Part shown: positions 2,272-62,757 of the stretch, piece by piece
Layout of the letters: every line of letters starts with the position of its first letter
How positions within the stretch are numbered: position 1 is the first letter of the stretch
Assembly: GCA_964019135.1 (NCBI GenBank)
Contig: OZ025265.1
Location: forward strand, 5,958,318 to 6,022,317
Direction of reading: 5' to 3'
DNA length: 64,000 bases
Origin: Arenicola marina
Lineage: Eukaryota; Annelida; Polychaeta; Arenicolidae
Notes under the pieces: generated by a model
Database searches by the model: none
Seen by the model: the letters and a program-made list of their open reading frames with translations, nothing else
Told to the model about the DNA's origin: nothing
Position numbers and translations under genes: made by a program

Positions 2272-2498
2272 TCAGGACGTCTTCTTGGGCTCGGCTTCCG
2301 GCGCGCGGATGTCCCGTGGCTGGCCGCCGTCCCAGCAGTCCCGCTGCAGGAAGCGCGTCATGGTGCGGTAGAGGTTCTGGCTGGTGTGCGGCCCGGACAG
2401 GCCGTGGTTCTTGTCCGTGTACAGCTGCATGCGGAAGTCCACGTCGGCCTGGGTGAGCGCGCGCATCAGGTGTGCCGAGTGCTGGAAATGTACATTGT
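2272..2498 (-). CDS. DPP6/10-like: exon w20: catalytic His and C-terminus
   Basis: 227 bp with stop TGA at 2272-2274. Acceptor CCGTTCCAG|ACAATG. Reads [17 protein letters not shown], then [10 protein letters not shown] (catalytic His) and [14 protein letters not shown]. About 20 residues ending EPKKTS extend beyond the usual DPP4 C-terminus, reminiscent of the acidic tails of DPP6/10. I saw no convincing polyadenylation signal close downstream; an ATTAAA on the minus strand lies at 461-466. Confidence 0.96.
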
Positions 2499-5400
2499 CT
2501 GGAACGGGACAACACAGAGACATGTAACCAGAGTACACATACCGGATCATAGTTATAGTTAAGCGGACGTACAATTAGCGTTAAAAGTAAATGACACATA
2601 AATAAATAACATGACTGCACAGAATCAATTATTTAATAGTAAGTTTACACCCATATTTGATGGGCTTTTTGACGACGTGCAGTTCCCGGGGTGCAGTGCC
2701 CGGGGTGCAGTGCCCGGGGCGCAGTGCCCGGGGTGCAGTGCCCGGGGTGCAGTGCCTGGGGTGCAGTACCCGGGTTGCAGTACCCAGGGTGAAGTTCCCG
2801 GGGTGCAGTGCCCGGGGTGCAGTGCCCGGGGTGCAGTACCCGGGGTGCAGTACCCGGGGTGAAGTGCCCGGGGTGCAGTGCCCGGGGTGCAGTGCCCGGG
2901 GTGCAGTACCCGGGGTGCAGTACCCGGGGTGCAGTGCCCGGGGTGCAGTGCCCGGGGTGCAGTGCCCGGGGTGCAGTGCCCGGGGTGCAGTGCCCGGGGT
3001 GCAGTGCCCGGGGTGCAGTGCCCGGGGTGCAGTACCCGGGGTGCAGTACCCGAGGTGCAGTGCCCGGGGTGCAGTCGCAGGTTACGTACCATCCGCAGTT
3101 CCGTGGACGAGCAGAAAATGTTTGTCCTTGAAACTGGATGCCTTTCGAGAGACATTGGCGTCCTGAATGAGATAGACAGAGACATATGAGGACATATTAG
3201 GGACATATCAGGGGCAAATCATGGGTATATCAGAACATATCAGGGATATATCAGGACATATCAGGGACATATCAGGACATATCAGGGATTAATCAGGACA
3301 TATCGATATGGTCACAGCCCAGCCGATCTACAGAGCTCGGTACGGAGACTAAGGAAGTCCGGTGTACCAGGTCATGTTGGAGTCCGGTGTACCAGGTCAT
3401 GTTGGAGTCGGGTGTACCAGGTCATGTTGGAGTCCGGTGTACCAGGTCATTTTGGGAGTCCGGTGTACCAGGTCATGTTGGAGTCCGGTGTACCAGGTCA
3501 TGTTGGAGTCCGGTGTACCAGGTCATGTTGGAGTCCGGTGTACCAGGTCATGTTGGAGTCCGGTGTACCAGGTCATGTCGGAGTCCGGTGTACCAGGTCA
3601 TGTTGGAGTCCGGTGTACCAAGTCATGTAGGAGTCCGGTGTACCAGGTCATGTTGAAGTCCGGTGTACCAGGTCATGTTGGAGTCCGGTGTACCAGGTCA
3701 TGTTGGAGTCCGGTGTACCAGGTCATGTTGGAGTCCGGTGTACCAGGTCATGTTGGAGTCCGGTGTACCAGGTCATGTTGGAGTCCGGTGTACCAGGTCA
3801 TGTTGGAGTCCGGTGTACCAGGTCATGTTTGAGCTCTTACCGTCACAAGACGTTGTACTAGTTACAAAGATAGCTCACTTTTGGCTAGAACACTAAAGCT
3901 ATAATTTAGTACCACATAAACTATGGATTTCAATAACGCTTCTCAGAAAAGATAAGACACTTCTTGCGCATAAATGTGCAAAAAGCAGTCTAACAACTAT
4001 ATAACATTCCACAGAACGGAGCGCTTTGACAAGTTAGAGTGACGCACGGGTGACCTAGAAAAGTTAGGGCGACACAAGGGAGGCCATGATAAGTTAGAGC
4101 GACACATGGGCGACCTAGACAACTTAGGGCGACACAAGGGAGGCCATGACAAGTTACAGCGACACAAGGGCGACCTAAACAAGTTAGGGCGACACAAGGG
4201 AGGCCATGACAAGTTAGAGCGACACACGGGCGACCTAAACAAGTTAGGGCGACACAAGGGAGGTCATGATGTATCACAGCTACACAGGGAGACATGGGGG
4301 CGGCGGGTGGGTACTCACGTCGTAGCCACACAGGGGGACACAGGCTCGGTGGGTGGGTACTCACGTCGTAGCCACACAGGGGGACACAGGCTCGGTGGAA
4401 GGGGACTCACGTCGTAGCCACACAGGGGGACACAGGCTCGGTGGGTGAGGACTCACGTCGTAGCCACACAGGGGGCGGCGGGTGGGGACTCACGTCGTAG
4501 CTACACAGGGGGACACAGGCTCGGTGGGTGGGGACTCACGTCGTAGCCACACAGGGGGACACAGGCTCGGTGGGTGGGGACTCACGTCGTAGCCACACAG
4601 GGGGACACAGGCTCGGTGGGTGGGGACTCACGTCGTAGCCACACAGGGGGACACAGGCTCGGTTGGTGGGGACTCACGTCGTAGCCACACAGGGGGACAC
4701 AGGCTCGGTGGGTGGGGACTCATGTCGTAGCCACACAGGGGGACACAGGCTCGGTGGGTGGGGACTCACGTCGTAGCCACACAGGGGGACACAGGCTCGG
4801 TGGGTGGGGACTCACGTCGTAGCCACACATGGGGACACAGGCTCGGTGGGTGGGGACTCACGCCGTAGCCACACAGGGGGACACAGGCTCGGTGGGTGGG
4901 GACTCACGTCGTAGCCACACAGGGGGACACAGGATCGGTGGGTGGGTACTCACGTGGTAGCCACACAGGGGGACACAGGCTCGGTGGGTGGGGACTCACG
5001 TTGTAACCACACAGGGGGACCTAGGCTCGGCGGGTGGGGACTCACGTCGTAACCACACAAGGGGACACAGGCTCGGTGGGTGGGGACTCACGCAGTAGCC
5101 ACACAGGGGGACACAGGCTCGGTAGGTGGGGACTCACGTCGTAGCCACATAGGGGGACACAGGCTGGGCGGGTGGGGACTCACGTCGTAGCCACACAGGG
5201 GGACACAGGCTCGGTGGGTGGGGACTCACGTCGTAGCCACACAGGGGGACACAGGCTCGGTGGGTGGGGACTCACGTCGTAGCCACACAGGGGGACACAG
5301 GCTCGGCGGGTGGGGACTCACGTCGTAGCCACACAGGGGGACACAGGCTCGGTGGGTGGGGACTCACGTCGTAGCCACACAGGGGGACACAGGCTCGGCG

Positions 5401-47400: not shown

Positions 47401-50400
47401 AGCAATTAACATAAAAATACAGATATATATATGTAATTACAAGTCAAAAGATAACATTGTAAAGAAGTTGACTGATCAGCCTAATTGTGAAAGAATCTTA
47501 TCCATTATAGAACATAGTTCATGCTTACCGCATTGACTATAAGTATATTTTCTAAAATGTAGTTCAGAATTTAAAAAAAGACACGACTAGATATTTCTCT
47601 CTGTGGCAAAGAACCGCATTGCATAATATAATCTTTGTACAAGAGATATGTGGTATACATATGTTGTCTAACATAATTACATACTATACAAGGGCAATGA
47701 AAAAACTCATTGAGAGATGTACGCAATATATAGGCAATCACGTTTGAGACACGGCATATCGAATTAAATTTATCTCGGCGATTTCTTGAACGGATTTTAT
47801 TGTGGCAATTAAATTTGAATGAAATACTTACACAAAGTTTTCCTCTTCGTCGTACGCGAGGACGTTGGTGACTTCCCACTGTCCGTGGGTGAGCACAGTG
47901 CGGGCTCCGGGACTCCCCGGCTGTAAGCACAACCACGCAGGGGACCATGGCATAGACATAAAGACTACAGTAAGAGCTACTGCGCACATAAGGGCTAAAG
48001 CGGACCAAAGAACTTGCCGGGACACTGACAGGAGTTATAAGAAAGGTCCCACATACGGGTCCCAGCGCACGAACCCAGAACCCGATGATGTCATCAAATC
48101 TTGTTTATTATTTGCTCGTCCGACAAGGAGAGAACATTATAGTCTTAGTCATAACTATATGGCAAACATTAAATGTAATCACTAAATTTATCTCAGTCGG
48201 AAGACATGGTATCACTACAGAATCAAAGATATAACATTTCAATCAATTTGATAGTAGGAACACTCTGGAACGGGAGCGACTGGCCAGGAAAAGACATGTT
48301 TTATGTTTCATTTAAGCGAATATATCTCTTCTACAAATTGGAATCCAAATGAGTTCCTAATTAATCATTATGACATCGTACGAAATTACATGTCTGTGCA
48401 ACATACATCACGAAAAGGGTGAGTGCACTATGACGTGCCAGACCGGCCACACACTTACCTTGGCCGTGACGACAGTGAGGTGCTTCCAGAAGAGATTACC
48501 AGACCAGCCACACACTTACCTTGGCCGTGACGACAGTGAGGTGCTTCCAGAAGAGATTACCAGACCGGCCACACACTTAGCTTGGCCGTGACGACAGTGA
48601 GGTGCTTCCAGAAGAGATTACCAGACCAGCCCCACACTTACCTTGGCCGTGACGACAGTGAGGTGCTTCCAGAAGAGATTACCAGAGCAGCCCCACACTT
48701 ACCTTGGCCGTGACGACAGTGAGGTGCTTCCAGAAGAGATTACCAGACCAGCCCCACACTTACCTTGGCCGTGACGACAGTGAGGTGCTTCCAGAAGAGA
48801 TTACCAGACCAGCCCCACACTTACCTTGGCCGTGACGACAGTGAGGTGCTTCCAGAAGAGATTACCAGACCGGCCCCACACTTACCTTGGCCGTGACGAC
48901 AGTGAGGTGCTTCCAGAAGAGATTACCAGACCAGCCACACACTTACCTTGGCCGTGACGACAGTGAGGTGCTTCCAGAAAAGATTACCAGACCAGCCACA
49001 CACTTACCTTGGCCGTGACGACAGTGAGGTGCTTCCAGAAGAGATTACCAGACTAGCCCCACACTTACCTTGGCCGTGACGACAGTGAGGTGCTTCCAGA
49101 AGAGATTACCAGACCAGCCACACACTTACCTTGCCCGTGACGACAGTGAGGTGCTTCCAGAAGAGATTACCAGACCGGCCACACACTTACCTTGGCCGTG
49201 ACGACAGTGAGATGCTTCCAGAAGAGATTACCAGACCAGCCACACACTTACCTTGGCCGTGACGACAGTGAGGTGCTTCCAGAAGAGATTACCAGACCAG
49301 CCCCACACTTACCTTGGCCGTGACGACAGTGAGGTGCTTCCAGAAGAGATTACCAGACCGGCCACACACTTACCTTGGCCGTGACGACAGTGAGGTGCTT
49401 CCAGAAGAGATTACCAGAGCAGCCACACACTTACCTTGGCCGTGACGACAGTGAGGTGCTTCCAGAAGAGATTACCAGACCGGCCACACACTTACCTTGG
49501 CCGTGACGACAGTGAGGTGCTTCCAGAAGAGATTACCAGACCAGCCCCACACTTACCTTGGCCGTGACGACAGTGAGGTGCTTCCAGAAGAGATTACCAG
49601 ACCGGCCACACATTTACCTTGGCCGTGACGACAGTGAGGTGCTTCCAGAAGAGATTACCAGACCAGCCACACACTTACCTTGGCCGTGACGACAGTGAGG
49701 TGCTTCCAGAAGAGATTACCAGACCAGCCACACACTTACCTTGGCCGTGACGACAGTGAGGTGCTTCCAGAAGAGATTACCAGACCAGCCCCACACTTAC
49801 CTTGGCCGTGACGACAGTGAGGTGCTTCCAGAAGAGATTACCAGACCAGCCACACACTTACCTTGGCCGTGACGACAGTGAGGTGCTTCCAGAAGAGATT
49901 ACCAGACCAGCCCCACACTTACCTTGGCCGTGACGACAGTGAGGTGCTTCCAGAAGAGATTACCAGACCAGCCCCACACTTACCTTAGCCGTGACGACAG
50001 TGAGGTGCTTCCAGAAGAGATTACCAGACCAGCCCCACACTTACCTTGGCCGTGACGACAGTGAGGTGCTTCCAGAAGAGATTACCAGACCAGCCCCACA
50101 CTTACCTTGGCCGTGACGACAGTGAGGTGCTTCCAGAAGAGATTACCAGACCAGCCCCACACTTACCTTGGCCGTGACGACAGTGAGGTGCTTCCAGAAG
50201 AGATTACCAGACCAGCCACACACTTACCTTGGCCGTGACGAGTGAGGTGCTTCCAGAAGAGATTACCAGACCAGCCCCACACTTACCTTGGCCGTGACGA
50301 CAGTGAGGTGCTTCCAGAAGAGATTACCAGACCAGCCACACACTTACCTTGGCCGTGACGACAGTGAGGTGCTTCCAGAAGAGATTACCAGACCAGCCCC

Positions 50401-53400
50401 ACACTTACCTTGGCCGTGACGACAGTGAGGTGCTTCCAGAAGAGATTACCAGAGCAGCCACACACTTACCTTGGCCGTGACGACAGTGAGGTGCTTCCAG
50501 AAGAGATTACCAGACCAGCCCCACACTTACCTTGGCCGTGACGACAGTGAGGTGCTTCCAGAAGAGATTACCAGACCAGCCACACACTTACCTTGGCCGT
50601 GACGACAGTGAGGTGCTTCCAGAAGAGATTACCAGACCAGCCCCACACTTACCTTGGCCGTGACGACAGTGAGGTGCTTCCAGAAGAGATTACCAGACCA
50701 GCCACACACTTACCTTGGCCGTGACGACAGTGAGGTGCTTCCAGAAGAGATTACCAGACCAGCCCCACACTTACCTTGGCCGTGACGACAGTGAGGTGCT
50801 TCCAGAAGAGATTACCAGACCAGCCCCACACTTACCTTGGCCGTGACGACAGTGAGGTGCTTCCAGAAGAGATTACCAGACCAGCCCCACACTTACCTTG
50901 GCCGTGACGACAGTGAGGTGCTTCCAGAAGAGATTACCAGACCGGCCACACACTTACCTTGGCCGTGACGACAGTGAGGTGCTTCCAGAAGAGATTACCA
51001 GACCAGCCACACACTTACCTTGGCCGTGACGACAGTGAGGTGCTTCCAGAAGAGATTACCAGACCAGCCACACACTTACCTTGGCCGTGACGACAGTGAG
51101 GTGCTTCCAGAAGAGATTACCAGACCAGCCCCACACTTACCTTGGCCGTGACGACAGTGAGGTGCTTCCAGAAGAGATTACCAGACCAGCCACACACTTA
51201 CCTTGGCCGTGACGACAGTGAGGTGCTTCCAGAAGAGATTACCAGACCAGCCCCACACTTACCTTGGCCGTGACGACAGTGAGGTGCTTCCAGAAGAGAT
51301 TACCAGACCAGCCCCACACTTACCTTGGCCGTGACGACAGTGAGGTGCTTCCAGAAGAGATTACCAGACCAGCCCCACACTTACCTTGGCCGTGACGACA
51401 GTGAGGTGCTTCCAGAAGAGATTACCAGACCAGCCCCACACTTACCTTGGCCGTGACGACAGTGAGGTGCTTCCAGAAGAGATTACCAGACCAGCCCCAC
51501 ACTTACCTTGGCCGTGACGACAGTGAGGTGCTTCCAGAAGAGATTACCAGACCAGCCACACACTTACCTTGGCCGTGACGAGTGAGGTGCTTCCAGAAGA
51601 GATTACCAGACCAGCCCCACACTTACCTTGGCCGTGACGACAGTGAGGTGCTTCCAGAAGAGATTACCAGACCAGCCACACACTTACCTTGGCCGTGACG
51701 ACAGTGAGGTGCTTCCAGAAGAGATTACCAGACCAGCCCCACACTTACCTTGGCCGTGACGACAGTGAGGTGCTTCCAGAAGAGATTACCAGAGCAGCCA
51801 CACACTTACCTTGGCCGTGACGACAGTGAGGTGCTTCCAGAAGAGATTACCAGACCAGCCCCACACTTACCTTGGCCGTGACGACAGTGAGGTGCTTCAA
51901 GAAGAGATTACCAGACCAGCCACACACTTACCTTGGCCGTGACGACAGTGAGGTGCTTCCAGAAGAGATTACCAGACCAGCCACACACTTACCTTGGCCG
52001 TGACGACAGTGAGGTGCTTCCAGAAGAGATTACCAGACCAGCCCCACACTTACCTTGGCCGTGACGACAGTGAGGTGCTTCCAGAAGAGATTACCAGACC
52101 AGCCCCACACTTACCTTGGCCGTGACGACAGTGAGGTGCTTCCAGAAGAGATTACCAGACCAGCCACACACTTACCTTGGCCGTGACGACAGTGAGGTGC
52201 TTCCAGAAGAGATTACCAGACAAGCCCCACACTTACCTTGGCCGTGACGACAGTGTGGTGCTTCCAGAAGAGATTACCAGACCAGCCCCACACTTACCTT
52301 GGCCGTGACGACAGTGAGGTGCTTCCAGAAGAGATTACCAGACCAGCCCCACACTTACCTTTGCCGTGACGACAGTGAGGTGCTTCCAGAAGCCAGACTG
52401 GCCGTCCTGCTCCGGGAATATCGCCAGGTACTGCTGTCCTTCCTGGATGAACATTATCTTCTCCTGCAGGCAAGGACAGCCAAGGTTAATCCATGGCTAG
52501 GGGACGTTGCGGGTGTCACTTCATTCAGTGGTATTGTGTGGATGGGCGAATGACTTGTTGGTGTTGGAATGACATTACATGGGAAAAGAGGCCTTGTTAC
52601 TCCTTTAGAGGCCGGATTCCGGACATTTATATTTGTAAAACGCTGCGTTATCTACGGAGCTGTGGAGGTTCCTGCCTCGGTTCAGAAATATATCTAAAAG
52701 TATGGCTTTGAGGACAATGACGTGCACAATCCATATCCACAACCATAAATAATTCCCGTATCCCTGTACAAGGACAGCAATTGACAGATTAACTCATTTC
52801 CTCCATCAGATTACACAAGACACTTTATCTCTGTACAACCTACAGTTACTCTTTAGTAACAGTTACTATTTATAGTCACCAATAACATGCATTTCCACTA
52901 GCATTCACGCCAATGTTGTCATGGCAATCACTGACACCCCACGTGGTTGACAGCTACCACAGACACCCATCCCCGGCCTTCGTGGCTGGTCTCTATCGGG
53001 TTGTCATGGCAATCACTGACACCCCACGTGGTTGACAGCTACCACAGACACCCATCCCCGGCCTTCATGGCTGGTCTCTATCGGGTTGTCATGGCAATCA
53101 CTGACACCCCACCACGTGGTTGACACCTACCACCGGCACCCATCCCCGGCCTTCATGGCTGGTCTCTATTGGGTTGCCATGGCAATCACTGACACCACAC
53201 CACGTGGTTGACACCTACCACCGGCACCCATCCCCGGCCTTCATGGCTGGTCTCTATTGGGTTGCCATGACAATCACTGACACCACACCACGTGGTTGAC
53301 ACCTACCACAGACACCCATCCCCGGCCTTCATGGCTGGTCTCTATCGTGTTTTCGTGGCAGTCCGTCGATTTGACGTCACAGAGGGTGATGACAGTTCTG

Positions 53401-56400
53401 TTTTGCGCTCGGTTGGACCAGGCGACCAGTATGGTGGCGTCATCCTTCCAGGAGACCAGCGTCAGGTAAAACTCCCTGCAACACCACACACAAAAGTGTA
53501 AAACACAGGTTAAAGATCCTCATACAAATGACATATACCGATTTTCCAAATATTTATGCATTGAAATTTACTGGACACATTGTCTAACCGGGCCGGTTAA
53601 CTGTTATCCTGCCGCTGAGCTGTTCAAGAAATGCACGTGTTATCATATATCGATCTCCGGGTTCAGTGGTAAGCACCGACAGCCAGGCCTCCCTGTGTAT
53701 TATAATGTAGCCCCCCCCCCCCCCCCCACCAAAAAAAATGGCAAACGTTGGCTATGTCCCAATTCACGGATATTAGAAAACAATATATTAGAGTCTGAGT
53801 TATTGCTCTTGTCATGCTAATATGATGGAAATACGATCCCCTCCCCGCCCCTCCCCCGCCCTAACAGAAATCCCGCATCTAGGAAAGAACCGCAAATCTG
53901 ACCAATCTCTTCATGAACGGTAGCCGTGGTTTGAGCTTTTCTCAAAATTGTACATTATTTGAAAAAAATCATCTGTACATTATCGCGAGCAAACGGTTCG
54001 ATTATACTTTGTACTTATACTTTATACTTTGTCAATATTTATATTACACTATAAAATCTGGATTAGGCTTTCGCCAACGCAAAGTTAGAGGTGAACATTT
54101 ATGTGTACGTGTACGTATTGTCAACGTCTTTACAGAATAAAGCTTTGAAACAAATATAGGCACCCCACACTTTCCAACACAAAATGCACCGGTCGACCAT
54201 AAGATGTCTTTAACGACATATCTTCCATTTATTGCACATTATATATTCGTATTTACAAAGCTTTCGATAGTAGGATACTGTATATGAAGTGCTGACGTCT
54301 GTTAACGCGATGTACATAATCTGCAGTCTGTAATAAACGTGATATCCACCATGCGTAAAACACAACTTTCAGTGTCCTGTAGTTATAATATAAAATATCG
54401 ACCATTTTCAATGCCTAAGCTATGGGCGGATTGTCTCAGCCTGGCCGGTGGGCCGCCTGTGGCTCACCCCACAGGGACTTACTTGTCGCGGAACTCGGCT
54501 GGAGGCTGGAGCTGCTTGGCGATGGGTCGGTTCACGTCTATCACAAACAGCGTCACGAGAGGGTTCACGTGAGCCGCGTCATCACCAGCCTGCACCAATC
54601 AAAACATCGGATATCCTACACACATCTGAGGTCACACATCACTGGCGTCTCAGATGTTACATAGTATGGACAATTTCCACTACTCTACCCTCATATGAAC
54701 ACCTATAGACAGATGCACGAGGAGCTTGTACACGACGAAATAGAACATATTGTTGTTTTAGGCCGCAAACAAGGGCTAAACTGGGCCAAGGGACTTCCCG
54801 CCACGATACATGATGAAAGGATGAAACATGTGCCAGATGATATGCATATGGCATTGCTTCTCGTGCGAGATGGGTTTATCTCAGCACAAGTCTTCAACGA
54901 TTTCGGAGATGCGTGCTGAGATAAACCCATCTCGCACGGGAAGCAATGCTAAATGTATTTTCTCCCTCGAATAGAACTTTAAACGTCGCCATTAAGTCAA
55001 CACGGAGATCTAACGATGACAATAATTTTCACGACCGCACGTAAATATTTGGTCAAAATCATAACAGTGGCGCTCAATAGCACCAGTAACTAAGTGTTCA
55101 CGCGACGTGTTTCCCTGGAGATATGACGTCGTCAAAGTGATTACGCCTCTGCGGCGGAGGTAGGCCTAACTAACGTATTGTTTTAGGCAAAATGGTATAT
55201 ATTTCTTAACATGAACCTTCTGTTTCGTAAATAGTAGCTATTAGTTCTATAGTTGTAGTTCATATGATTCAGGTCTATAGCTATTTAGTTCGGTGGGTTT
55301 GTTGGAACAATTTATGTAAATATCAGTTACGTGCATTGACACCGCGATAACCACTGAGTGACAAGATCTGTAACGTGAATGGCGGCAGCAAAACAACGCA
55401 CGATTGGAAAACTAAAATGAATTTTACAAAGGAAGTTTCAGCTTTTAAGCCGCCAAACTTCGCCACATGAACTAATTTATCAAACTGTAACATAATATGA
55501 TAAAATCTCAATTTCTGACACGTATACCCAGACGGGTTTTTCCCGGAACTGGTGTCAACATTGGCCACTGACAACAGAGTGCGAGAATAGCCCGAGATTC
55601 CAATTTAAAGGTATCCTCCTCACACGTAGGCCGAGGACTTTGACCCCTCACCTTGGGATACGCTATCTCCTCACACGTACGCCGAGGACTTTGACCCCTC
55701 ACCTTGGGATACGCTATCTCCTCACACGTACGCCGAGGACTTTGACCCCTCACCTTGGGATACGCTATCTCCTCACACGTACGCCGAGGACTTTGACCCC
55801 TCACCTTGGGATACGCTATCTCCTCACACGTACGCCGAGGACTTTGACCCCTCACCTTGGGATACGCTATCTCCTCACACGTACGCCGAGGACTTTGACC
55901 TCTCACCTTGGGATACGCTATCTCTTCACACGTACGCCGAAAACTTTGACCCCTCACCTTGGGATACGCTATCTCCTCACACGTACGCCGAAAACTTTAA
56001 CCCCTCACCTTGGGATACGCTATCTCCTCACACGTACGCCGAGGACTTTGACCCCTCACCTTAGGATACGCTATCTCCTCACACGTACGCCGAGGACTTT
56101 GACCCCTCACCTTAGGATACGCTATCTCTTCACACGTACGCCGAGGACTTTAACCCCTCACCTTGGGATACGCTATCTCCTCACACGTACGCCGAGGACT
56201 TTGACCCCTCACCTTGGGATACGCTATCTCTTCACACGTACGCCGAGGACTTTAACCCCTCACCTTGGGATACGCTATCTCCTCACACGTACGCCGAGGA
56301 CTTTGACCCCTCACCTTAGGATACGCTATCTCCTCACACGTACGCCGAGGACTTTGACCCCTCACCTTAGGATACGCTATCTCCTCACACGTACGCCGAG

Positions 56401-59400
56401 GACTTTGACCCCTCACCTTAGGATACGCTATCTCCTCACACGTACGCCGAGGACTTTGACCCCTCACCTTAGGATACGCTATCTCCTCACACGTACGCCG
56501 AGGACTTTGACCCCTCACCTTAGGATACGCTATCTCCTCACACGTACGCCGAGGACTTTGACCCCTCACCTTAGGATACGCTATCTCCTCACACGTACGC
56601 CGAGGACTTTGACCCCTCACCTTAGGATACGCTATCTCCTCACACGTACGCCGAGGACTTTGACCCCTCACCTTAGGATACGCTATCTCCTCACACGTAC
56701 GCCGAGGACTTTGACCCCTCACCTTGGGATACGCTATCTCCTCACACGTACGCCGAGGACTTTGACCCCTCACCTTGGGATACGCTATTTCCTCCACGTT
56801 GCCGTAGATGTTGGTTCCGGCGCCGTAGACGGGGTACTTATAGGCCGGCACAGAGGTGTCGTTGAAGACGGCGTAGGCCAAGGCCTGACTGTTGGGAGAC
56901 CACCAGTGGGCAGCGTTACCGTGCAGCAACTCCTCTGCAGAAACAAAAACAACTAATTATATAATGTTGATGTTTGCGAGTAGAACAACAATTATAATAA
57001 CTCCAAATTAATGTTTCAGCAATATACCTTGGTTTACGTTATTATGACACTTCATATATGCCGGATACAGCTACGGGCTACCATTATCATAAATTATGAA
57101 TGCGCCAAAATAGATTCATATTCATATTCATTAATATTTTTCGGTAGCCCTGTTGTCCATGTTGCTCCACAATGGATGAACTTAGAAGTTACCGCTTAAT
57201 GTTACACTATAGATGGTATAATGACTACGTTCTTTGCGATAAATATAGCAGCAGATAAATGCAGTTCGTTTTATTTAAGAATCTGATACGGTCTTGGTCA
57301 CCGCTGTATTTTTGTGAACATTTAAACAACTCCTCTTATTGTCGCTAGGCTGAGGACCACGGGTTCTCCATACACACCCTCATACAGCCAGTCGGGAATG
57401 CCGTTAAAGATGAACTTGCTGCCCGAGTGAGTGAGTTGTGAGGCTGTGGAGAGCGGGTTGCTCTGGTAGTACAAGTTGTTGCTGTACACAAAAGTCTGTA
57501 AACAGACAGAGGGGGGTACGTATGTCATAACAATCTACATATATTCTATGCAATATGCCTAAGTGCTATTACGGTTATTGTCGTCACACGTATCCTTATT
57601 GAGTCAAAACCTTCAAAGACTCAACGAATAACATGTACGTAACTACAATTACGGTTCAACTCTTGGCTGTACGTAAATAAATTAATGTAAATATTTTAAT
57701 GTAAGTTGTCAACGAAGTAGATATTCTGGCTTGTAACTGAAGTATAGAAGGTGAGATGCGGACTGAGGCAGGCTTACGAGAGAGTGTCCCGAGGAGGACC
57801 AGCCTGCATACTGTAGCTTCCGGTCCTTCCAGTCCTCGTTGGCCACCAGCGGGAACTCCATCAGCCTCCTGGCGGGCAACAAAGACAACACTAAGCGGCT
57901 GCCCGGCAGTGTATTTACATAAGTACACAATAAACCATGGTACACCATTACCGGTATTTAATGCCCATTTTAATTGCGGTCCGAGTCGTGTTTGGCCGCC
58001 AGAGCCCGGGACTGGCGAGGGCTGAGGTCGTTACCGCCCGTGGTCATTAATGTCCCGTCACTCTATTGGCTATATCCGGGAGCGTAATGCCCTGCCGCTC
58101 ACGTCCCGTGCATACAACCACTTGCATTAGTCACCCATGGCGCACTATGAACTGGGTCTGCGTCCGTATTGAAAGCAGCCGGCTTCCTCGGGGCCGAGAT
58201 CATTATATATCACACACAATGTAATTCACTAATATACATAGATATTAATTCGGTTATTGCAACATCCTTACTAAAGAATGTGTAACATAATACGCCAAAA
58301 TTTATCCAAGTTTGTGAGACGGCAAACATATGTACACGTGCTTCATGGGCGGAGTGCCACACAGGAGACCCATTTACCCATACCCATGCTGGTTGCCAAG
58401 GATACATAATAACATCACAGGTAAAGCACCTACCCCGGCTGGTCGCTGGCATCTCTGTTGTAGATCACATACTTGGCTTTGAAGGAATGTCTATAGACCT
58501 ATCAGCACAGATAAAAACAAGCCCATCATCAACGAATATCCCGAGTATTCTTTAGTGCTTGCGTGTTTCACAGGAACCGGTTATCGCAGGGGAAGGAAGC
58601 GTAAGCGAACCTCTTTGGAATAACCACTATAATCGTGTCTGTGAAGCAAATGTCGTGCTTCCTTACTTAAATGACAGCTGGATATCAATATAGAAGCAGA
58701 TATAGCCATTCCACGTTCCAGGTTGTTTCACCAAAATGAAATTGGTAGGCTATGTGAATAAATAGGCCTATATTTGCAGGCATTGGGTAGATTCGTCCAC
58801 AATAAATACTTACCATTTCGATATCATAAGCTACAAGAACGTATTTCAGATCGGGTGATACGAAGAACCGATCGGTGTTATATTTCCTCTGCAACAAAAA
58901 TAATGATGTTCACATCAACAGGGAAATGCACTGAGCAAACTAATCTCTGATATTCTTGTACGGACAAACCATACAAAAATTAGGCGATATAATATGGCAT
59001 TGACATAGCTAAGGCGCCTGCTGAGCCCACTGGCCTACATCATGATAACCAGTAGTATCTAGGGAACATGGCGGCACAATGTTGGGAAATATACCACATA
59101 CTTAACATACTAGAACGAAGATAAGTAATCAGCACAACCAAAACTTCAACAAATTCATTGATAAATATACCTCAAAGAAGAGAAAAAAGCTTGGCAGCTG
59201 ACAAACCTGGGAAGATATTTGTGTCTAGTCGACGTTTTAGGGATGATAAAGAGGCCAGGGGCCGTTTTCATAATCACCACTTAGGCTACGCCACTAGACT
59301 TACCGCTAGGTGGAAGATTTGTCGAGCGATTATCAGGTTCAAAATACATATGTAGTCACCCAAAAAGTGGATTTTCTGAATTAAGAAAGTGCTAAAATTA

Positions 59401-61439
59401 TATTAAATACGACTTCTTAATCATGAGCACCACCACCACGAGCTGGTGACGCAAAACGCACCTTTCGTGCGTAACTTACGAAGGGATTCTGAATACGGCC
59501 CCACAACCTTAGTGCCAGGAATAGAACAGCCCGACTGGCAACGTTAAAGTAATGAGCAAGGTCGCTTAGAACACTGACAAGGTAATTGTACTTTATGACG
59601 CAGATTTCTTGTTTGAGACGAGTGGAGAGCGCGGATGAGATACTGTTTGAGACGAGTGGAGAGCGCGGATGAGATACTGTTTGAGACGAGTGGAGAGCGC
59701 GGATGAGATACTGTTTGAGACGAGTGGAGAGCGCGGATGAGATACTGTTTGAGACGAGTGGAGAGCGCGGATGAGATACTGTTTGAGACGAGTGGAGAGC
59801 GCGGATGAGATACTGTTTGAGACGAGTGGAGAGCGTGGATGAGATACCGTTTGAGACGAGTGGAGAGCGCGGATGAGATACTGTTTGAGACGAGTGGAGA
59901 GCGCGGATGAGATACTGTTTGAGACGAGTGGAGAGCGCGGATGAGATACTGTTTGAGATGAGTGGAGAGCGCGGATGAGATACTGTTTGAGACGAGTGGA
60001 GAGCGCGGATGAGATACTGTTTGAGACGAGTGGAGAGCGCGGATGAGATACTGTTTGAGACAAGTGGAGAGCGCGGATGAGATACCGTTTGAGACGAGTG
60101 GAGAGCGCGGATGAGATACCGTTTGAGACGAGTGGAGAGCGCGGATGAGATACTGTTTGAGACGAGTGGAGAGCGCGGATGAGATACTGTTTGAGACGAG
60201 TGGAGAGCGCGGATGAGATACTGTTTGAGACAAGTGGAGAGCGCGGATGAGATACCGTTTGAGACGAGTGGAGAGCGCGGATGAGATACTGTTTGAGACG
60301 AGTGGAGAGCGCGGATGAGATACTGTTTGAGACGAGTGGAGAGCGCGGATGAGATACTGTTTGAGACAAGTGGAGAGCGCGGATGAGATACCGTTTGAGA
60401 CGAGTGGAGAGCGCGGATGAGATACTGTTTGAGACGAGTGGAGAGCGCGGATGAGATACTGTTTGAGACGAGTGGAGAGCGCGGATGAGATACTGTTTGA
60501 GACGAGTGGAGAGCGCGGATGAGATACTGTTTGAGACGAGTGGAGAGCACGGATGAGATACTGTTTGAGACGAGTGGAGAGCGCGGATGAGATACTGTTT
60601 GAGATGAGTGGGTAACTCACGAATGTCGAGTTGTCCATGATGGAGGTGGTGGTGTTGGAGACGGGGTCAAACTGCAACAAGTCCATGTCCCGCGTGGCAA
60701 ACACCAACATGTCATCTTCTGCAAGCAGCGGCAACAACAAGCGATGTTTACACTGTAGCCGCTCAGCCCACACCGACAATACACCACGTCCGTCATGCGA
60801 TGGGCGTCACGCAGTGCACGATGGGCGTCACGCAGTGCACGATGGGCGTCACGCGGTGCACGATGGGCGTCACGCAGTGCACGATGGGCGTCACGCAGTG
60901 CAAGATGGGCGTCACGCGGTGCACGATGGGCGCCACGTGGTGCACGATGGGCGCCGCGCGGTGCACGATGGGCGCCACGCGGTGCACGATGGGCGCCACG
61001 CGGTGCACGATGGGCGCCACGCGGTGCACGATGGGCGCCAGCGAGGGTGTATTGTGTTTGTCAACTAAATGCGTATAAGTTGTTATGTGTGTTTCTTCTT
61101 CAATTTCTATTTACTTTTCTAAATATATATATTGCATACATTGCACGAAATGTGCTTTTACGCTGTGTTATTTCAATTACTCGGAATAAATAAATGTCAT
61201 AACGAATACTTGTAAATACAAATAATCCATACAATATAAAATTAATTCTAACGGCATGGCATCAAGTTCAATTATTACAAAGGCAATGCTATATGAATCC
61301 ATAACTGATGATACATTGCATGCACAGCGCTAGACGTTGATACCTCCCGTCCACTTGGCATCGAAGTGTCTTGTGGAGAAGTGCGGACTAAACATGTCCT
61401 GGAAGGTGAACGGCTCGCCTGGCACCTCCGCGTCATGTT
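2272..61439 (-). CDS. DPP6/10-like: S9B dipeptidyl-peptidase family gene (DPP6/DPP10-like, catalytic triad intact), 20 exons, 5' end missing
   Basis: Twenty minus-strand exons with GT-AG borders join in consistent phase into about 761 codons ending in TGA at 2272-2274. Family members are single-pass type II membrane proteins with an eight-blade beta-propeller and an alpha/beta-hydrolase domain that removes N-terminal dipeptides after Pro/Ala; DPP6/DPP10 instead modulate Kv4 channels. Seen here: an Arg in YRHSF, the Glu-Glu motif in WLYEEELLHG, a Cys-rich stretch starting CLSC, the oxyanion Tyr in HTYGGPG, the nucleophile Ser in GWSYGG, the Asp in HGTADDNVHF and the His in YTDKNHGL. The propeller stretches [27 protein letters not shown] and NRAQN are closest, from memory, to DPP6/DPP10, yet those vertebrate proteins lack the Ser. 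I infer an active enzyme near the DPP6/10 branch; an ordinary DPP4 orthologue is the alternative. About 40 or more N-terminal residues, including the membrane segment, are not in the window. Exons are w1 (5') to w20 (3'). Confidence 0.93.
2677..3076. repeat. 14-bp minisatellite, ~28 copies, 13 bp past the donor of w19
   Basis: Period 14 bp, unit CCCGGGGTGCAGTG on the plus strand. It fills most of the w19-w20 intron and starts 13 bp after the w19 5' splice site. Units carry a partly palindromic CCCGGG. Open frames through it are by-products of a short-period repeat without stops, not genes. Confidence 0.95.
3090..3162 (-). CDS. DPP6/10-like: exon w19: catalytic Asp
   Basis: 73 bp, isolated 31.5 kb from w18. 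Acceptor CATTCAG|GACGCC, donor GCGGATG|GTACGT. Reads [20 protein letters not shown], then TAD, matching 'LLIHGTADD' of DPP4, where the first Asp is the catalytic acid. Phase joins w18 and w20 exactly. Confidence 0.94.
3180..3310. repeat. degenerate ACATATCAGG short repeat
   Basis: Loose tandem repetition of about 10-21 bp (ACATATCAGGGACATATCAG-like), just upstream in the transcript of the w19 acceptor. Copies are too diverged to count reliably. Confidence 0.75.
3357..3830. repeat. 25-bp minisatellite, ~19 copies
   Basis: Period 25 bp, core GGTGTACCAGGTCATGTTGG. Lies about 200 bp upstream, in transcript direction, of the w19 acceptor in the 31.5-kb intron. On the sense strand each unit has CTG|GTACAC, a donor-like string, but it does not match a neighbouring exon. 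Confidence 0.93.
3831..4029. other. unique spacer between two arrays
   Basis: About 200 bp of AT-rich single-copy sequence inside the 31.5-kb intron. No exon or element recognised. Confidence 0.6.
4030..4270. repeat. 30-bp minisatellite organised as 60-bp dimers, ~4 dimers
   Basis: Alternating related 30-bp half-units, both starting AAGTTAG and containing GCGACACA. One half carries GGAGGCCATGA, the other GGGCGACCTA. It abuts the far end of the 46-bp array. Confidence 0.85.
5590..6290. repeat. 406-bp local duplication inside the 46-bp array
   Basis: The unit-variant pattern starting at 5632 recurs at 6038 (offset 406 bp), including the altered AAAGGGGGAC unit and the GGAGGCCACAGG unit, showing a recent block duplication. 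Confidence 0.8.
7361..12500. repeat. ~2.73-kb higher-order tandem duplication in the 46-bp array
   Basis: The ordered series of unit variants from about 7361 to 9760 recurs from about 10093 to 12495 with offset 2732-2735 bp (7905 and 10637; 8492 and 11227; 9052 and 11787; 9763 and 12498). The 3-bp change in offset comes from one unit lacking CGT near 8412. I saw very few differences between the blocks, so the event looks recent. Confidence 0.85.
13500..27200. repeat. ~3.91-kb higher-order repeat blocks, three full and one truncated
   Basis: Diagnostic variant runs recur at 14016, 17925, 19389 and 23298 (offsets 3909, 1464, 3909). Others recur at 15610, 20983 and 24892 (5373, 3909). Blocks begin near 13.5, 17.4 (truncated to 1464 bp), 18.9 and 22.8 kb. 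Order and variants are almost identical between blocks, meaning kilobase-scale amplification was laid over the 46-bp repeat. Confidence 0.85.
28679..30960. repeat. 1141-bp higher-order duplication in the 46-bp array
   Basis: Variant runs at 28679, 28779 and 29139 recur at 29820, 29920 and 30280 (offset 1141 bp). The same run is a later copy of that seen at 24892 in the 3.9-kb blocks. Confidence 0.8.
31683..32935. repeat. 597- and 322-bp local duplications near the exon end of the array
   Basis: The run beginning at 31767 recurs at 32364 and 32686 (offsets 597 and 322, the latter seven units). A GGGTCAGACTC variant unit at about 31262, 31355 and 31951 marks shared ancestry. Confidence 0.75.
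34685..34846 (-). CDS. DPP6/10-like: exon w18: nucleophile Ser; its 3' end seeds the 46-bp array
   Basis: 162 bp, phase 0 at both ends. Acceptor GTCTCCAG|TCCTAC, donor TACGAC|GTGAGT. The first codon is the nucleophile Ser (SYGGF), followed by [20 protein letters not shown] and RFMGL, ending YRGYD. The final 9 bp plus the donor occur in nearly every unit of the 30-kb array that follows. Confidence 0.96.
34847..35383. other. intron w17-w18, no element recognised
   Basis: AT-rich unique sequence of 537 bp containing a few TGACGTCA-like strings near 34975 and 35090. No repeat or gene seen. Confidence 0.6.
35384..35441 (-). CDS. DPP6/10-like: exon w17: ends in Gly-Trp just before the catalytic Ser
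   Basis: 58 bp. Acceptor CTTGCAG|GTATCT, donor GGATGG|GTGAGT. Reads [19 protein letters not shown], matching 'FVDNKRIAIWGW'. The active-site motif GWSYGG is split between this exon and w18. I recall the same split in mammalian DPP4, which would make this an old intron position. Confidence 0.95.
35442..35810. other. intron w16-w17 with TA microsatellite and G14 run
   Basis: Contains an (AT)n stretch at about 35618-35644 and a G14 homopolymer at 35788-35801 on the plus strand. On the sense strand that is a C-run starting about 8 bp after the w16 donor. Confidence 0.85.
35811..36005 (-). CDS. DPP6/10-like: exon w16: hydrolase core with oxyanion Tyr
   Basis: 195 bp. Acceptor GTTACAG|GTATGG, donor GCCAA|GTGAGT. 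Reads [17 protein letters not shown], then [11 protein letters not shown] and [17 protein letters not shown]. The Tyr before GGPG is the counterpart of human DPP4 Tyr547, which stabilises the oxyanion. A C-homopolymer begins about 8 bp after its donor. Confidence 0.96.
36172..36247 (-). CDS. DPP6/10-like: exon w15: start of hydrolase domain
   Basis: 76 bp. Acceptor TTCTTCCAG|AACTGT, donor CACAC|GTATGT. Reads [15 protein letters not shown], then YPLLIHT, matching '[23 protein letters not shown]' of DPP4. Confidence 0.93.
36248..36645. other. intron w14-w15, no element recognised
   Basis: 398 bp of AT-rich unique sequence; nothing coding or repetitive recognised. Confidence 0.6.
36646..36744 (-). 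CDS. DPP6/10-like: exon w14: end of propeller
   Basis: 99 bp. Acceptor GTGTCCAG|TGACGG, donor GAGAAA|GTATGT. Reads [15 protein letters not shown], matching 'LRVLEDNSALDKML' of DPP4, then ETDDGE. Confidence 0.93.
36745..37123. other. 3' half of intron w13-w14, no element recognised
   Basis: Unique AT-rich sequence leading up to the SINE insertion; no exon seen. Confidence 0.6.
37131..37390 (+). mobile_element. tRNA-derived SINE, ~260 bp, antisense to the gene
   Basis: The head looks like a tRNA gene with pol III promoter boxes: A-box-like GATAGCTCAGTGGGCTAGAG at 37147-37166 and B box GGTTCGAGCCC near 37219. An unrelated body follows and the 3' tail is AACCAACCAACCAAC. A 7-bp direct repeat CAATACT flanks it (37124-37130 and 37391-37397), consistent with a target-site duplication. 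I do not recognise the family. The short target duplication and intact boxes suggest a fairly young copy. Being antisense in an intron it adds no coding sequence. Confidence 0.8.
37398..37424. repeat. 13-bp perfect inverted repeat beside the SINE
   Basis: GGAAATACCCATT and its reverse complement AATGGGTATTTCC are separated by one base. It starts just past the right-hand direct repeat of the SINE. It may be chance or a short hairpin. Confidence 0.7.
37489..37664 (-). CDS. DPP6/10-like: exon w13: Cys-rich propeller segment
   Basis: 176 bp. Acceptor CCCTTCTCCAG|GATCTC, donor ACGACG|GTACAC. Reads [18 protein letters not shown], then [14 protein letters not shown], keeping the four Cys of human DPP4 (CLSC...C...C) that form disulfides. 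The polypyrimidine-CAG of its acceptor is the template sequence of the 9.4-kb array lying upstream in the transcript. Confidence 0.95.
40298..42740. repeat. 1220-bp higher-order duplication in the 38-bp array
   Basis: Variant runs at 40298, 40531 and 40949 recur at 41518, 41751 and 42169 with a constant offset of 1220 bp and almost no differences. Confidence 0.85.
42890..45000. repeat. 1106-bp higher-order duplication in the 38-bp array
   Basis: Runs at 42932, 43123, 43274 and 43541 recur at 44038, 44229, 44380 and 44647 with offset 1106 bp. The block is related to the 1220-bp one before it. Confidence 0.85.
45200..46960. repeat. GAATGGACAAG-subtype blocks repeated at ~300-550 bp
   Basis: Runs holding shortened units (AACATGAATATTCTGCGGAA) and the CTGTAGAATGG variant recur at about 45.2, 46.1 and 46.5 kb, and at 45.3, 45.9, 46.2 and 46.8 kb respectively. 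This indicates local block duplication of a separate subfamily at the w12-proximal end. Confidence 0.75.
47148..47195 (-). CDS. DPP6/10-like: exon w12: propeller, 48-bp micro-exon
   Basis: 48 bp. Acceptor TATATAG|ATATTA, donor TTCAG|GTACCA. Reads [15 protein letters not shown], aligning with 'YYISNEYKG...RNLY' of DPP4. Short, but held by phase on both sides and by homology. Confidence 0.9.
47196..47831. other. intron w11-w12, no element recognised
   Basis: 636 bp of AT-rich unique sequence with a T13-14 run near 47370. No exon or mobile element seen. Confidence 0.6.
47832..47920 (-). CDS. DPP6/10-like: exon w11: propeller
   Basis: 89 bp. Acceptor GCTTACAG|CCGGGG, donor TTTGT|GTAAGT. Reads [20 protein letters not shown], matching 'VRHLTSGNWEVIKILAYDE' of DPP10 very closely. 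Confidence 0.94.
47921..48436. other. 3' part of intron w10-w11, no element recognised
   Basis: About 516 bp of unique sequence between the 61-bp array and the w11 acceptor. Confidence 0.6.
48437..52392 (-). repeat. 61-bp donor-spanning minisatellite, ~65 copies
   Basis: Period 61 bp. On the sense strand each unit holds 34 bp matching the end of exon w10 (CTTCTGGAAGCACCTCACTG ... GGCCAAG), then GTAAGTGTG and about 18 bp of intron. The array therefore runs into the exon itself (52359-52392). Nearly all units keep AAG|GTAAGT; I noticed two altered donors (near 48577 and 49611). Variation is concentrated in the intronic part (GACC/GACCGG, CCCC/CCAC). A 59-bp unit lacking two bases occurs at 50221 and again at 51561. 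Confidence 0.97.
49560..52230. repeat. 1340-bp higher-order duplication in the 61-bp array
   Basis: The rare 59-bp unit and the order of flanking variants around 50221 recur around 51561. The offset of 1340 bp equals one 59-bp plus twenty-one 61-bp units. The outer limits are approximate. Confidence 0.75.
52359..52463 (-). CDS. DPP6/10-like: exon w10: propeller; its 3' end seeds the 61-bp array
   Basis: 105 bp, phase 0 at both ends. Acceptor CCTGCAG|GAGAAG, donor GGCAAAG|GTAAGT. Reads [17 protein letters not shown], then [12 protein letters not shown], aligning with 'PVFSRDGSKFFMTVP...GEFHHIAM' of DPP10. A few residues shorter than the vertebrate proteins at the w9/w10 join. Its last 34 bp recur about 65 times downstream. 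Confidence 0.92.
52464..52914. other. 3' part of intron w9-w10, no element recognised
   Basis: 450 bp of unique sequence between the 85-88-bp repeat and the w10 acceptor. I looked for a small extra exon for the DPP segment between w9 and w10 and found none. Confidence 0.6.
52915..53350 (-). repeat. 85-88-bp donor-spanning tandem repeat, 5 copies
   Basis: Units start at 52915, 53000, 53085, 53173 and 53261 (85, 85, 88 and 88 bp apart). The last one overlaps exon w9. On the sense strand each carries about 39 bp of the w9 end (ATAGAGACCAGCC ... GGGGATGGGTG), then the donor region. Three copies keep GTAGGT; the two farthest from the exon read GTAGCT. This may show an early or stalled stage of the process that made the larger arrays. 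Confidence 0.93.
53307..53475 (-). CDS. DPP6/10-like: exon w9: propeller; its 3' end seeds the 85-88-bp array
   Basis: 169 bp. Acceptor TGTTGCAG|GGAGTT, donor CTGTG|GTAGGT. Reads [12 protein letters not shown], then [17 protein letters not shown], strikingly like 'WLNRAQNVSILTLCD' of DPP6. It ends with [10 protein letters not shown]. About 39 bp of its 3' end recur in the adjoining tandem repeat. The donor was chosen because it keeps phase 0 into w10. Confidence 0.9.
53476..54482. other. intron w8-w9 with a C17 run
   Basis: About 1 kb of AT-rich unique sequence. A C17 homopolymer at 53711-53727 is followed by A8, and a second C-rich patch lies near 53840. No gene or mobile element recognised. 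Confidence 0.65.
54483..54589 (-). CDS. DPP6/10-like: exon w8: propeller
   Basis: 107 bp. Acceptor TTGGTGCAG|GCTGGT, donor GACAA|GTAAGT. Reads [18 protein letters not shown], matching 'KAGAVNPTVKFFVVN' of DPP4, then [11 protein letters not shown], matching the 'MPPD' segment of DPP6/10. No array lies at its splice sites. Confidence 0.92.
54590..54850. other. intron w7-w8 sequence before the hairpin
   Basis: Unique sequence. A plus-strand frame of 74 codons runs from 54695 into the hairpin, but it has no similarity I recognise and no splice context. Confidence 0.4.
54851..54949. repeat. near-perfect 37-bp inverted repeat with 25-bp loop
   Basis: Left arm 54851-54887 begins GCATTGCTTCTCGTGCGAGA and ends CTCAGCAC. 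Right arm 54913-54949 is its reverse complement with a single mismatch (T/C, a G-U pair in RNA). Such a stem could fold as a strong RNA hairpin in the intron, or be a tiny palindromic transposon or a replication snap-back. No target-site duplication was obvious. Confidence 0.9.
54950..55616. other. intron w7-w8 sequence after the hairpin, no element recognised
   Basis: 667 bp of unique AT-rich sequence up to the 51-bp array. Confidence 0.55.
55617..56794 (-). repeat. 51-bp donor-spanning minisatellite, ~23 copies, in frame
   Basis: Period 51 bp. On the sense strand each unit has the last 21 bp of exon w7 (GAGGAGATAGCGTATCCCAA + G, one mismatch to the exon) followed by GTGAGGGGTC. It is continuous with the exon (56774-56794). 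Because 51 is 17 codons, the frame stays open for about ten units ([10 protein letters not shown] then EEIAYPK) until units carrying TTAACCCC bring a TAA. Using any distal donor would add a multiple of 17 residues without a frameshift. Confidence 0.97.
56774..56934 (-). CDS. DPP6/10-like: exon w7: Glu motif and propeller; its 3' end seeds the 51-bp array
   Basis: 161 bp. Acceptor TTCTGCAG|AGGAGT, donor CCCAAG|GTGAGG. Completes WLYEEELLHG, then [20 protein letters not shown] and ends EEIAYPK. In DPP4 the two Glu bind the substrate's free amino group. The last 21 bp of the exon recur in every unit of the adjoining minisatellite. Confidence 0.95.
56935..57377. other. intron w6-w7, no element recognised
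   Basis: 443 bp of AT-rich unique sequence. Confidence 0.6.
57378..57495 (-). CDS. DPP6/10-like: exon w6: propeller, leading into the Glu motif
   Basis: 118 bp. Acceptor TTTACAG|ACTTTT, donor GAGG|GTGTGT. Reads [11 protein letters not shown], then [12 protein letters not shown], matching 'NNIYY' and 'IFNGIADWLYEEE'. Its last codon is split with w7 so that the Glu-Glu motif is rebuilt across the junction. Confidence 0.93.
57778..57868 (-). CDS. DPP6/10-like: exon w5: propeller
   Basis: 91 bp. Acceptor CCGCCAG|GAGGCT, donor CTC|GTAAGC. Reads [13 protein letters not shown], then [13 protein letters not shown], matching 'LQYAGWGPKGQQL' of DPP6 and 'VTWSPVGHKL' of DPP4. Confidence 0.9.
57869..58433. 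other. intron w4-w5, no element recognised
   Basis: 565 bp. A GC-rich patch at about 57975-58195 differs from the AT-rich surroundings and may be an old repeat fragment, but I do not recognise a family. Confidence 0.45.
58434..58498 (-). CDS. DPP6/10-like: exon w4: propeller, Arg of the substrate N-terminus site
   Basis: 65 bp. Acceptor CTGATAG|GTCTAT, donor CGGG|GTAGGT. Reads [14 protein letters not shown], aligning with 'WRHSYTASYDIY' of DPP4. The Arg corresponds to human DPP4 Arg125, which contacts the substrate. The acceptor has a mediocre pyrimidine tract, but phase and homology fix it. Confidence 0.88.
58499..58813. other. intron w3-w4, no element recognised
   Basis: 315 bp of unique sequence; nothing coding or repetitive seen. 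Confidence 0.55.
58814..58888 (-). CDS. DPP6/10-like: exon w3: propeller
   Basis: 75 bp, phase 0 at both ends. Acceptor GTTGCAG|AGGAAA, donor ATG|GTAAGT. Reads [16 protein letters not shown], nearly the same as '[14 protein letters not shown]' of vertebrate DPP10 as I remember it. This is one of the clearest DPP6/10-type signatures in the gene. Confidence 0.93.
58889..59257. other. 3' part of intron w2-w3, no element recognised
   Basis: About 370 bp of AT-rich unique sequence between the w3 acceptor and the MITE-like element. Confidence 0.5.
59261..59505. mobile_element. possible MITE with GGGGCCGTWTTCA termini, ~245 bp
   Basis: GGGGCCGTTTTCATAATC at about 59261 faces the reverse complement of GGGGCCGTATTCAGAATC ending near 59505, giving imperfect terminal inverted repeats of about 17 bp. 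No transposase is encoded. Many marine-invertebrate non-autonomous DNA elements have termini of this style. No clear target-site duplication was found. Confidence 0.45.
59609..60611 (-). repeat. 34-bp minisatellite, ~30 copies, 9 bp past the donor of w2
   Basis: Period 34 bp; on the sense strand the unit contains CCACTCGTCTCAAACAGTAT. The first unit starts directly after GTGAGTTAC, the w2 donor. The unit does not include exon sequence but carries a pyrimidine-rich stretch ending in CAG. Long frames on the minus strand repeat [11 protein letters not shown]-type motifs and are not genes. Confidence 0.95.
60621..60718 (-). CDS. DPP6/10-like: exon w2: propeller blade 1
   Basis: 98 bp. Acceptor CTTGCAG|AAGATG, donor TTC|GTGAGT, leaving in phase 0. 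Reads [10 protein letters not shown], then NTTTS and DNSTF, matching the 'LLLENTTF / FLENSTF' segment of DPP10 and DPP4. NTT and NST are possible N-glycosylation sites. The 34-bp minisatellite begins 9 bp after its donor. Confidence 0.92.
60798..61039. repeat. 21-bp minisatellite, ~12 copies
   Basis: Period 21 bp, unit CACGATGGGCGCCACGCGGTG with a second variant ATGGGCGTCACGCAGTG. Lies in the w1-w2 intron, about 80 bp before the w2 acceptor. The period is a multiple of 3, so several frames stay open. Confidence 0.93.
61040..61343. other. 5' part of intron w1-w2, no element recognised
   Basis: About 300 bp of AT-rich unique sequence after the w1 donor. Confidence 0.55.
61344..61439 (-). CDS. 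DPP6/10-like: exon w1: start of propeller domain
   Basis: 96 bp. Acceptor TTACAG|AACATG, donor G|GTATCA. It enters with two bases of a split codon, so an upstream exon must exist. Reads [12 protein letters not shown] then DAKWTG, the counterpart of the 'TLEDLF...ARW' segment just after the membrane anchor in DPP6/DPP10. This is the most upstream exon I can support. Confidence 0.88.
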
Positions 61440-62470: not shown

Positions 62471-62757
62471 CTGTAAGACCACTACCAGTCGCCCCCGTAA
62501 GACGACCACCGGTCACCTCTGTAAGACGACCACCGGTCACCTCCGTAATACGACCACCGGTCACCTCCGTAAGACGACCACCGGTCACCTCCGTAAGACG
62601 ACCACCGGTCACATCCGTAAGACGGCCACCGGTCACATCCGTAAGACGACCACCGGTCACCTCCGTAAGACCACCACCGGTCACATGCGTACGATGGCCA
62701 CCGGTCACCTCCGTAAGACGACCACCGGTCACCTCCGTGAGATAATCACCGGTCACT
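62471..62757. repeat. 24-bp minisatellite, ~12 copies
   Basis: Period 24 bp, core CGTAAGACGACCACCGGTCA. On the sense strand units contain GAG|GTGACC, a donor-like string. It lies upstream of w1, so probably in the next intron. Confidence 0.92.

Follow-up and report, generated by a model that had tools for sequence, protein, structure and literature searches.

Why are eight of the 19 introns of a single gene filled with tandem repeats, and why do so many of these repeats lie against a splice site? The question is raised by a window of 64,000 nucleotides (the whole stretch of DNA that was analyzed), for which an earlier note had described minisatellites seeded repeatedly at the gene's own splice junctions. 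The analysis reported here confirms the observation as a whole and partly supports its interpretation: the arrays are probably minisatellites of the 'mirage' type, and the gene whose introns house them is a serine-protease gene of the DPP4/DPP10 type.

The gene lies on the minus strand of the window, as do all exons and intronic arrays listed below with their window positions, and codes for a DPP4/DPP10-type (S9B) peptidase. Spliced alignment to human DPP10 and pig DPP4 yields 19 exons; an exon added by hand on the 5' side of the aligned set (w1) brings the model to 20 exons, 19 introns, and 761 codons in a single open frame. Pfam analysis finds both domains of a DPP, the propeller (DPPIV_N, 1.2e-95) and the peptidase (Peptidase_S9, 2.1e-56). 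The motifs WGW/SYGG (the slash marks an exon border), GTADDNVHF, and DKNHG match DPP4 in the alignment, with Ser, Asp, and His in place; we take these to be the catalytic residues and the peptidase to be presumably active, unlike DPP10. No Rfam match at the gathering threshold and no tRNA was found in the window. In a scan of genome contigs, the matches listed comprise at least 80 loci, all with bacterial titles, at 44-52% identity.

The first visible exon, w1 (61344..61438), has an open frame, a CAG acceptor, and a GT donor. It is the weakest exon call because the DPP10 and DPP4 alignments stop short of it, and further 5' exons are expected upstream. The 3' part of w2 (60621..60718) is covered by the spliced alignment, its acceptor being read from the sequence. 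Spliced alignment places w3 (58814..58888), w4 (58434..58498), w6 (57378..57495), w8 (54483..54589), w13 (37489..37664), w14 (36646..36744), w15 (36172..36247), w16 (35811..36005), w17 (35384..35441), and w19 (3090..3162). The two runs disagree by a few bases at five exons: w5 (57778..57868; start at 57868 with DPP10, 57865 with DPP4), w9 (53307..53475; end at 53307 with DPP4, 53301 with DPP10), w10 (52359..52463; end at 52359 with DPP10, 52355 with DPP4), w11 (47832..47920; start at 47920 with DPP10, 47904 with DPP4), and w12 (47148..47195; end at 47148 with DPP4, 47154 with DPP10). Exons w7 (56774..56934) and w18 (34685..34846) both end inside arrays, the latter opening with the serine motif SYGGF. 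In the last coding exon, w20 (2273..2498), homology reaches as far as 2335-2341 and the remainder is open frame. The model is least secure at the borders of w1 and where w11 starts. Several exon ends at array-bearing introns are fixed by homology across the border: YPK/AG (w7/w8), HLF-R-I (w12/w13), and HGTAD/DNVHF (w19/w20).

TRF returns 34 rows for the window, many of them overlapping, among which 11 clear tandem arrays occupy introns 1, 2, 7, 9, 10, 12, 18, and 19; the arrays outnumber the introns because four sit in intron 18. They make up 47,774 of the 56,880 intron bases (84%), leaving 266 array-free bases in intron 18 (31,522 bp) and 77 in intron 12 (9,483 bp). The set omits a short AT-rich array in intron 5, away from junctions (57673-57704, 14 bp, 2.3 copies, 32 bases), and two 1.9-copy rows upstream of the gene (61811-61857 and 62172-62224). 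Two flanking arrays are likewise uncounted: a 58-bp array of 22.8 copies (848-2170), some 100 bases beyond the end of the coding frame, and a 24-bp array of 12 copies (62468-62756), upstream of the visible exons, in which several frames are open.

Four arrays span the end of an exon together with its donor. By TRF edges, the 51-bp array (55616..56799, 23.2 copies) takes in the final 26 bases of w7 (21 by the edge of the exact run), the 88-bp array (52915..53360, 5.1 copies) the final 54 bases of w9, the 61-bp array (48438..52392, 64.8 copies) the final 34 bases of w10, and the 46-bp array (4278..34693, about 661 copies) the final 9 bases of w18. The last is the largest of all: it extends over 30.4 kb and repeats the exon-18 donor. 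Exact copies of the donor 9-mer, the real donor counted, amount to 541 GACGTGAGT in the 46-bp array, 63 AAGGTAAGT in the 61-bp array, 22 AAGGTGAGG in the 51-bp array, and 3 GTGGTAGGT in the 88-bp array. Two more arrays start just inside the intron, the 34-bp array of intron 2 (59610..60611, 29.5 copies) past 9 intron bases and the 14-bp array of intron 19 (2677..3075, 28.5 copies) past 14. On the acceptor side, the 39-bp array (37680..47085, about 241 copies) stops 15 bases short of the w13 acceptor, and a 21-bp array (3177..3304, about 6 copies) stops 14 bases short of the w19 acceptor. The three remaining arrays are off-junction: a 21-bp array in intron 1 (60798..61037, 11.4 copies), some 80 bases from the acceptor, and a 60-bp (4027..4269, about 4 copies) and a 25-bp array (3356..3833, 19.1 copies) within intron 18.

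This anatomy agrees in nearly every respect with what the earlier note had read from the letters: the same eight introns, units across the exon end and donor after w7, w9, w10, and w18, and arrays just past the donor after w2 and w19. The array before w19 is absent from that description. Its statement that the units before w13 copy the acceptor is right for the intron side only, because these units carry a pyrimidine tract and CAG (206 copies of TTCCTCAG) and no exon-13 sequence. The units were also held to be unrelated to one another, and indeed they look so: the best local score among the 55 unit pairs is 20. Two pairs, both in opposite orientation, outscore all 100 shuffles, which is weak evidence at most as the shuffles were made in one orientation. 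Spread of one repeat through the gene is rejected on these low scores (20 or below). A 22-base unit pattern has no match in viral contigs.

Placement was assessed against a null in which a single unit stands for each array and receives a random position on the collapsed gene (11,729 bp), wholly exonic units being barred. Adjacency was set at 15 bases, a limit taken from the earlier note, with three arrays barely inside it (14, 14, and 15 bases). The gene was chosen for the pattern itself, and the placement P values are thus post hoc and concern one gene. Under random placement, six of the 11 arrays are donor-adjacent (1.15 expected, P 0.0003), eight lie at any junction (2.28 expected, P 0.0002), and four span a donor (0.82 expected, P 0.006); acceptors taken alone show no excess among the 11 arrays (P 0.32). 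When each array is held to its own intron, P becomes 0.001 for donor-adjacent, 0.001 for junction, and 0.011 for donor-spanning arrays. If intron 18 is represented by its main array only, the three secondary ones being dropped, six of eight arrays lie at donors (P 0.00003); adding the intron-5 array as a twelfth gives P 0.0005 for donors and 0.0005 for junctions, without matching for composition.

Composition accounts for a part of this excess. The GC content is 0.58 in exons and 0.41 in array-free intron, and nine of the 11 arrays reach 0.53 or more, the two acceptor-side arrays having the lowest values (0.47 and 0.40). With a GC-matched null, in which units are dropped only on windows with similar GC, the expected number of junction-adjacent arrays is lifted from 2.28 to 3.81 (8 seen, P 0.0082) and that of donor-spanning arrays from 0.82 to 1.69 (4 seen, P 0.066), while 2.21 donor-adjacent arrays are expected (6 seen, P 0.0097). 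With the twelfth array included, the GC-matched values are P 0.066 for spanning, 0.0105 for donor-adjacent, and 0.0102 for junction arrays. GC-rich births combined with exclusion from exons would yield about half of the junction arrays observed and about a quarter of the excess. Composition alone does not suffice, since GC matching leaves the donor-adjacent excess in place: a donor bias beyond GC content remains, in one gene and post hoc. The claim of repeated seeding at splice junctions therefore divides. The local sequence speaks for several independent births beside splice sites, while the case for a specificity for junctions loses some of its force, but not all, under the GC-matched null. 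To note, the CpG o/e is 0.90 in exons, 0.94 in introns, and 0.85 in flanks; together with the intron GC of 0.41, this suggests a weakly methylated genome, and nothing further.

The explanation that we favor, with a modest degree of confidence, is that GC-rich repeats arise through slippage or duplication, are selected out of exons, are left at exon edges with some donor bias, and grow on a kilobase scale. Exons being the GC-rich part of the gene, many births would occur in or near them; selection would remove the arrays inside exons, so that the surviving births would be intronic or would overlap an exon edge. A birth overlapping the edge would keep an intact junction at the exon-proximal copy, and the array could then expand, whether through unequal exchange or through duplications of kilobase size. 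Up to hundreds of decoy splice sites would be present in the pre-mRNA, and the spliceosome is expected to pick among them the copy nearest to the exon; the arrays would thereby be removed with the intron. Several observations stand behind this scheme: the anatomy of the arrays, in particular the continuity of unit and exon at four donors; their GC richness, and the rise in expected junction-adjacent and donor-spanning numbers on GC matching; terminal direct repeats for some arrays; and large exact internal duplications. It is also in keeping with passages of PMC2820488, in which minisatellites are often G/C-rich and thought to be born between short direct repeats. The low GC of the two acceptor-side arrays counts against it, and the extra donor bias remains outside what it explains. 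The earlier note had offered a tolerance effect, in which a junction-spanning duplication survives by keeping a usable junction. Tolerance alone is insufficient, as arrays deep in an intron should be no less tolerated; combined with exclusion from GC-rich exons, it does better.

Traces of birth and growth are found within the arrays. A terminal direct repeat, in which the first bases of the unit reappear where the far flank begins, occurs in four of nine scored arrays (5 and 7 bases exact; 12 and 16 bases with one mismatch), and no clear one was found in the other five; the two acceptor-side arrays (39-bp and second 21-bp) were left out of this test and the 88-bp array was not followed to its end. 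Five or more exact bases occur with a frequency of 0.002 in 20,000 random pairs. Such a terminal partial copy might instead arise during array growth. In the 61-bp array, GTCTGG stands by eye at the exon-side edge and at the unit ends, followed by the six bases TAATCT, which look like filler. The longest exact internal duplications measure 5,361 bp in the 46-bp array, 1,183 bp in the 39-bp array, and 571 bp in the 61-bp array. The first of these forms two nearly head-to-tail blocks at 13587-24320 on the minus strand (5,361 bp exact at a lag of 5,373 bp), due either to duplication in the very recent past or to an error of assembly. Length polymorphism and somatic instability would fit with recent internal duplications, the sequence being of one haplotype. 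The share of consensus 12-mers is even along the 46-bp array (0.70-0.75 per tenth); in the 39-bp array it is 0.38-0.39 in the donor-side fifth as against 0.50-0.58 elsewhere.

The donor bias that composition leaves over is a ground for a different, tentative reading, in which junctions, donors above all, are mutational hotspots: some process linked to transcription or splicing would provoke breaks or slippage a short way into the intron and so seed the arrays there. The six arrays at donors point this way (P 0.0003-0.001 on position only, 0.0097 when GC-matched), and so does a regularity in their first units. Although they measure anywhere from 14 to 88 bp, the first units in introns 2, 7, 9, 10, 18, and 19 without exception terminate between +25 and +43 of the intron (P 0.005, noticed post hoc). 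A bolder form, which we regard as doubtful, makes active junctions the recurrent birthplaces of minisatellites in this lineage: the downstream breakpoint would lie some 25-43 bases into the intron, and splicing or transcription would seed the repeats and drive intron expansion. Against hotspots stand the reliance on one gene with post hoc thresholds and the donor-spanning class, which alone gives P 0.066 after GC matching. Strand composition bears on R-loops, a cause named by the earlier note: the sense-strand GC skew is negative (C-rich) in eight of the 11 arrays, including the 46-, 34-, and 14-bp donor arrays, while the three that are G-rich on the sense strand (51, 88, and 61 bp) are all among the four donor-spanning arrays. 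R-loops are thus rejected as the cause of the whole set and may still apply to these three.

The junctions of the other introns also speak against hotspots. Eleven introns have no clear arrays, and at their 22 junctions small duplications score 17.7 on average versus 16.8 at 80 control positions, with one exception, the intron-17 acceptor. A continuum of births that would extend to the other junctions as small duplications is rejected on this comparison, the same acceptor excepted. There, within intron 17 (34979-35002, minus strand), a 24-bp stretch repeats the acceptor CAG and the first exon bases of w18 with 22 of 24 matches, 153 bp upstream of the original. Both mismatches fall on third codon positions, and the copy reads SYGGFVTS and then a stop. 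The catalytic-serine exon may have been duplicated long ago, or the copy may represent a mirage of this exon with two units.

Could the arrays instead be maintained by selection, many donors raising U1 binding and thereby guarding long introns from premature 3' end formation or stabilizing exon definition? The 541 and 63 exact donor 9-mers of introns 18 and 10 lend this some appeal, as does the near-invariance of the donor G and T (0.97-1.00) in the three arrays scored for conservation (46, 61, and 51 bp; the 88-bp array was left out). Yet the donor 9-mer ranks unremarkably among the windows of its unit, 14 of 46, 28 of 61, and 8 of 51. The donor columns being ordinary within the unit, these three arrays give no sign of selection for many donors, and their conservation fits neutral homogenized repeats, as expected. 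Besides, the 39-bp array became large (9.4 kb) without a donor, and 11 of the 19 introns manage without clear arrays. We hold this explanation to be very unlikely.

Equally improbable in our judgment is that the internal copies serve as alternative splice sites that would generate protein variants, as in human IFI6 (6-16). Downstream repeat units are used there as splice donors according to a passage of PMC4526556, and the title of Turri 1995 refers to a minisatellite with multiple splice donors. IFI6 resembles the arrays described here, so far as these sources describe it, in having donor-type repeat units within a minisatellite; its donors are reported as used, whereas the internal donors of the four junction-spanning arrays here are putative. 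The 51-bp unit would suit such a role: it is 17 codons long and in frame with w7, each unit retained by use of an internal donor could lengthen the protein by 17 residues without a frameshift, and the frame stays open through 10 units until the first stop. However, three stops occur within this array in the w7 frame, and a single unit of 88, 61, or 46 bp would shift the frame.

That the array sizes are mostly an assembly artefact, a suspicion to which the exact 5,361-bp repeat of the 46-bp array (lag 5,373 bp) might give rise, is hardly to be expected either. The continuity of units with exons and the variants found within arrays hold whatever the array length, and every junction array would have to be wrong for the finding to disappear.

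The closest known systems are the mirage minisatellites of amphioxus, which the earlier note had named correctly: passages of PMC3087553 describe them in several genes, Adh3 and globin genes among them, on the donor side in BflGb9 and on the acceptor side in BflGb6. In BflGb6, the 3' end of an intron and the start of the exon are tandemly duplicated, and an acceptor-derived case is therefore not new, contrary to what had been supposed. According to the same source, the regular splicing of Adh3 and globin genes is reportedly unharmed, the mirages are unstable in length, and they are possibly general in cephalochordates; PMC3902484, as excerpted, adds PGBD5, with similar repeats, and troponin C to the amphioxus set. 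The likeness to the present gene lies in the boundary-spanning unit, the copies of splice signals, and the occurrence on donor and acceptor sides. A unit across the exon-intron boundary, with several copies of the splice signal per array, is found in four of the 11 arrays (51, 88, 61, and 46 bp); the other seven are not mirages in the strict sense.

The difference is one of scale. The amphioxus units are 10-160 bp long and affect several genes (PMC3087553, PMC3902484), and the globin and PGBD5 copy numbers given in those passages are 2 to 7 units. The present gene has eight junction-adjacent arrays, four of them spanning, of up to 30.4 kb and about 661 units, amounting with the rest to 84% of its intron DNA. 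A literature search, in which few subscription papers were covered, found no array this large and no gene with so many junctions affected. The kind is thus already known, and the number of junctions per gene and the array size exceed the published passages, as the earlier note had supposed. Mirages have also been proposed as a source of introns (in a passage of PMC3087553). Intron gain by tandem genomic duplication, as far as its description goes, is similar in that a splice-signal sequence is tandemly duplicated within a gene; it differs in that no new intron is evident here, the borders of the array-bearing introns matching DPP homology.

The locus bears on splicing and on the origin of minisatellites alike. 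Intron 18 puts to a natural test the way in which the spliceosome settles on a single 5' splice site. Hundreds of downstream copies share the sequence of the true donor and of what immediately surrounds it; local sequence can therefore hardly decide the choice, and where a site stands with respect to the exon must count. With several births having occurred independently in the same gene, the origin of minisatellites also becomes testable against splice-site position across a whole genome. Finally, if the host is other than a lancelet, minisatellites of this kind would reach into another lineage.
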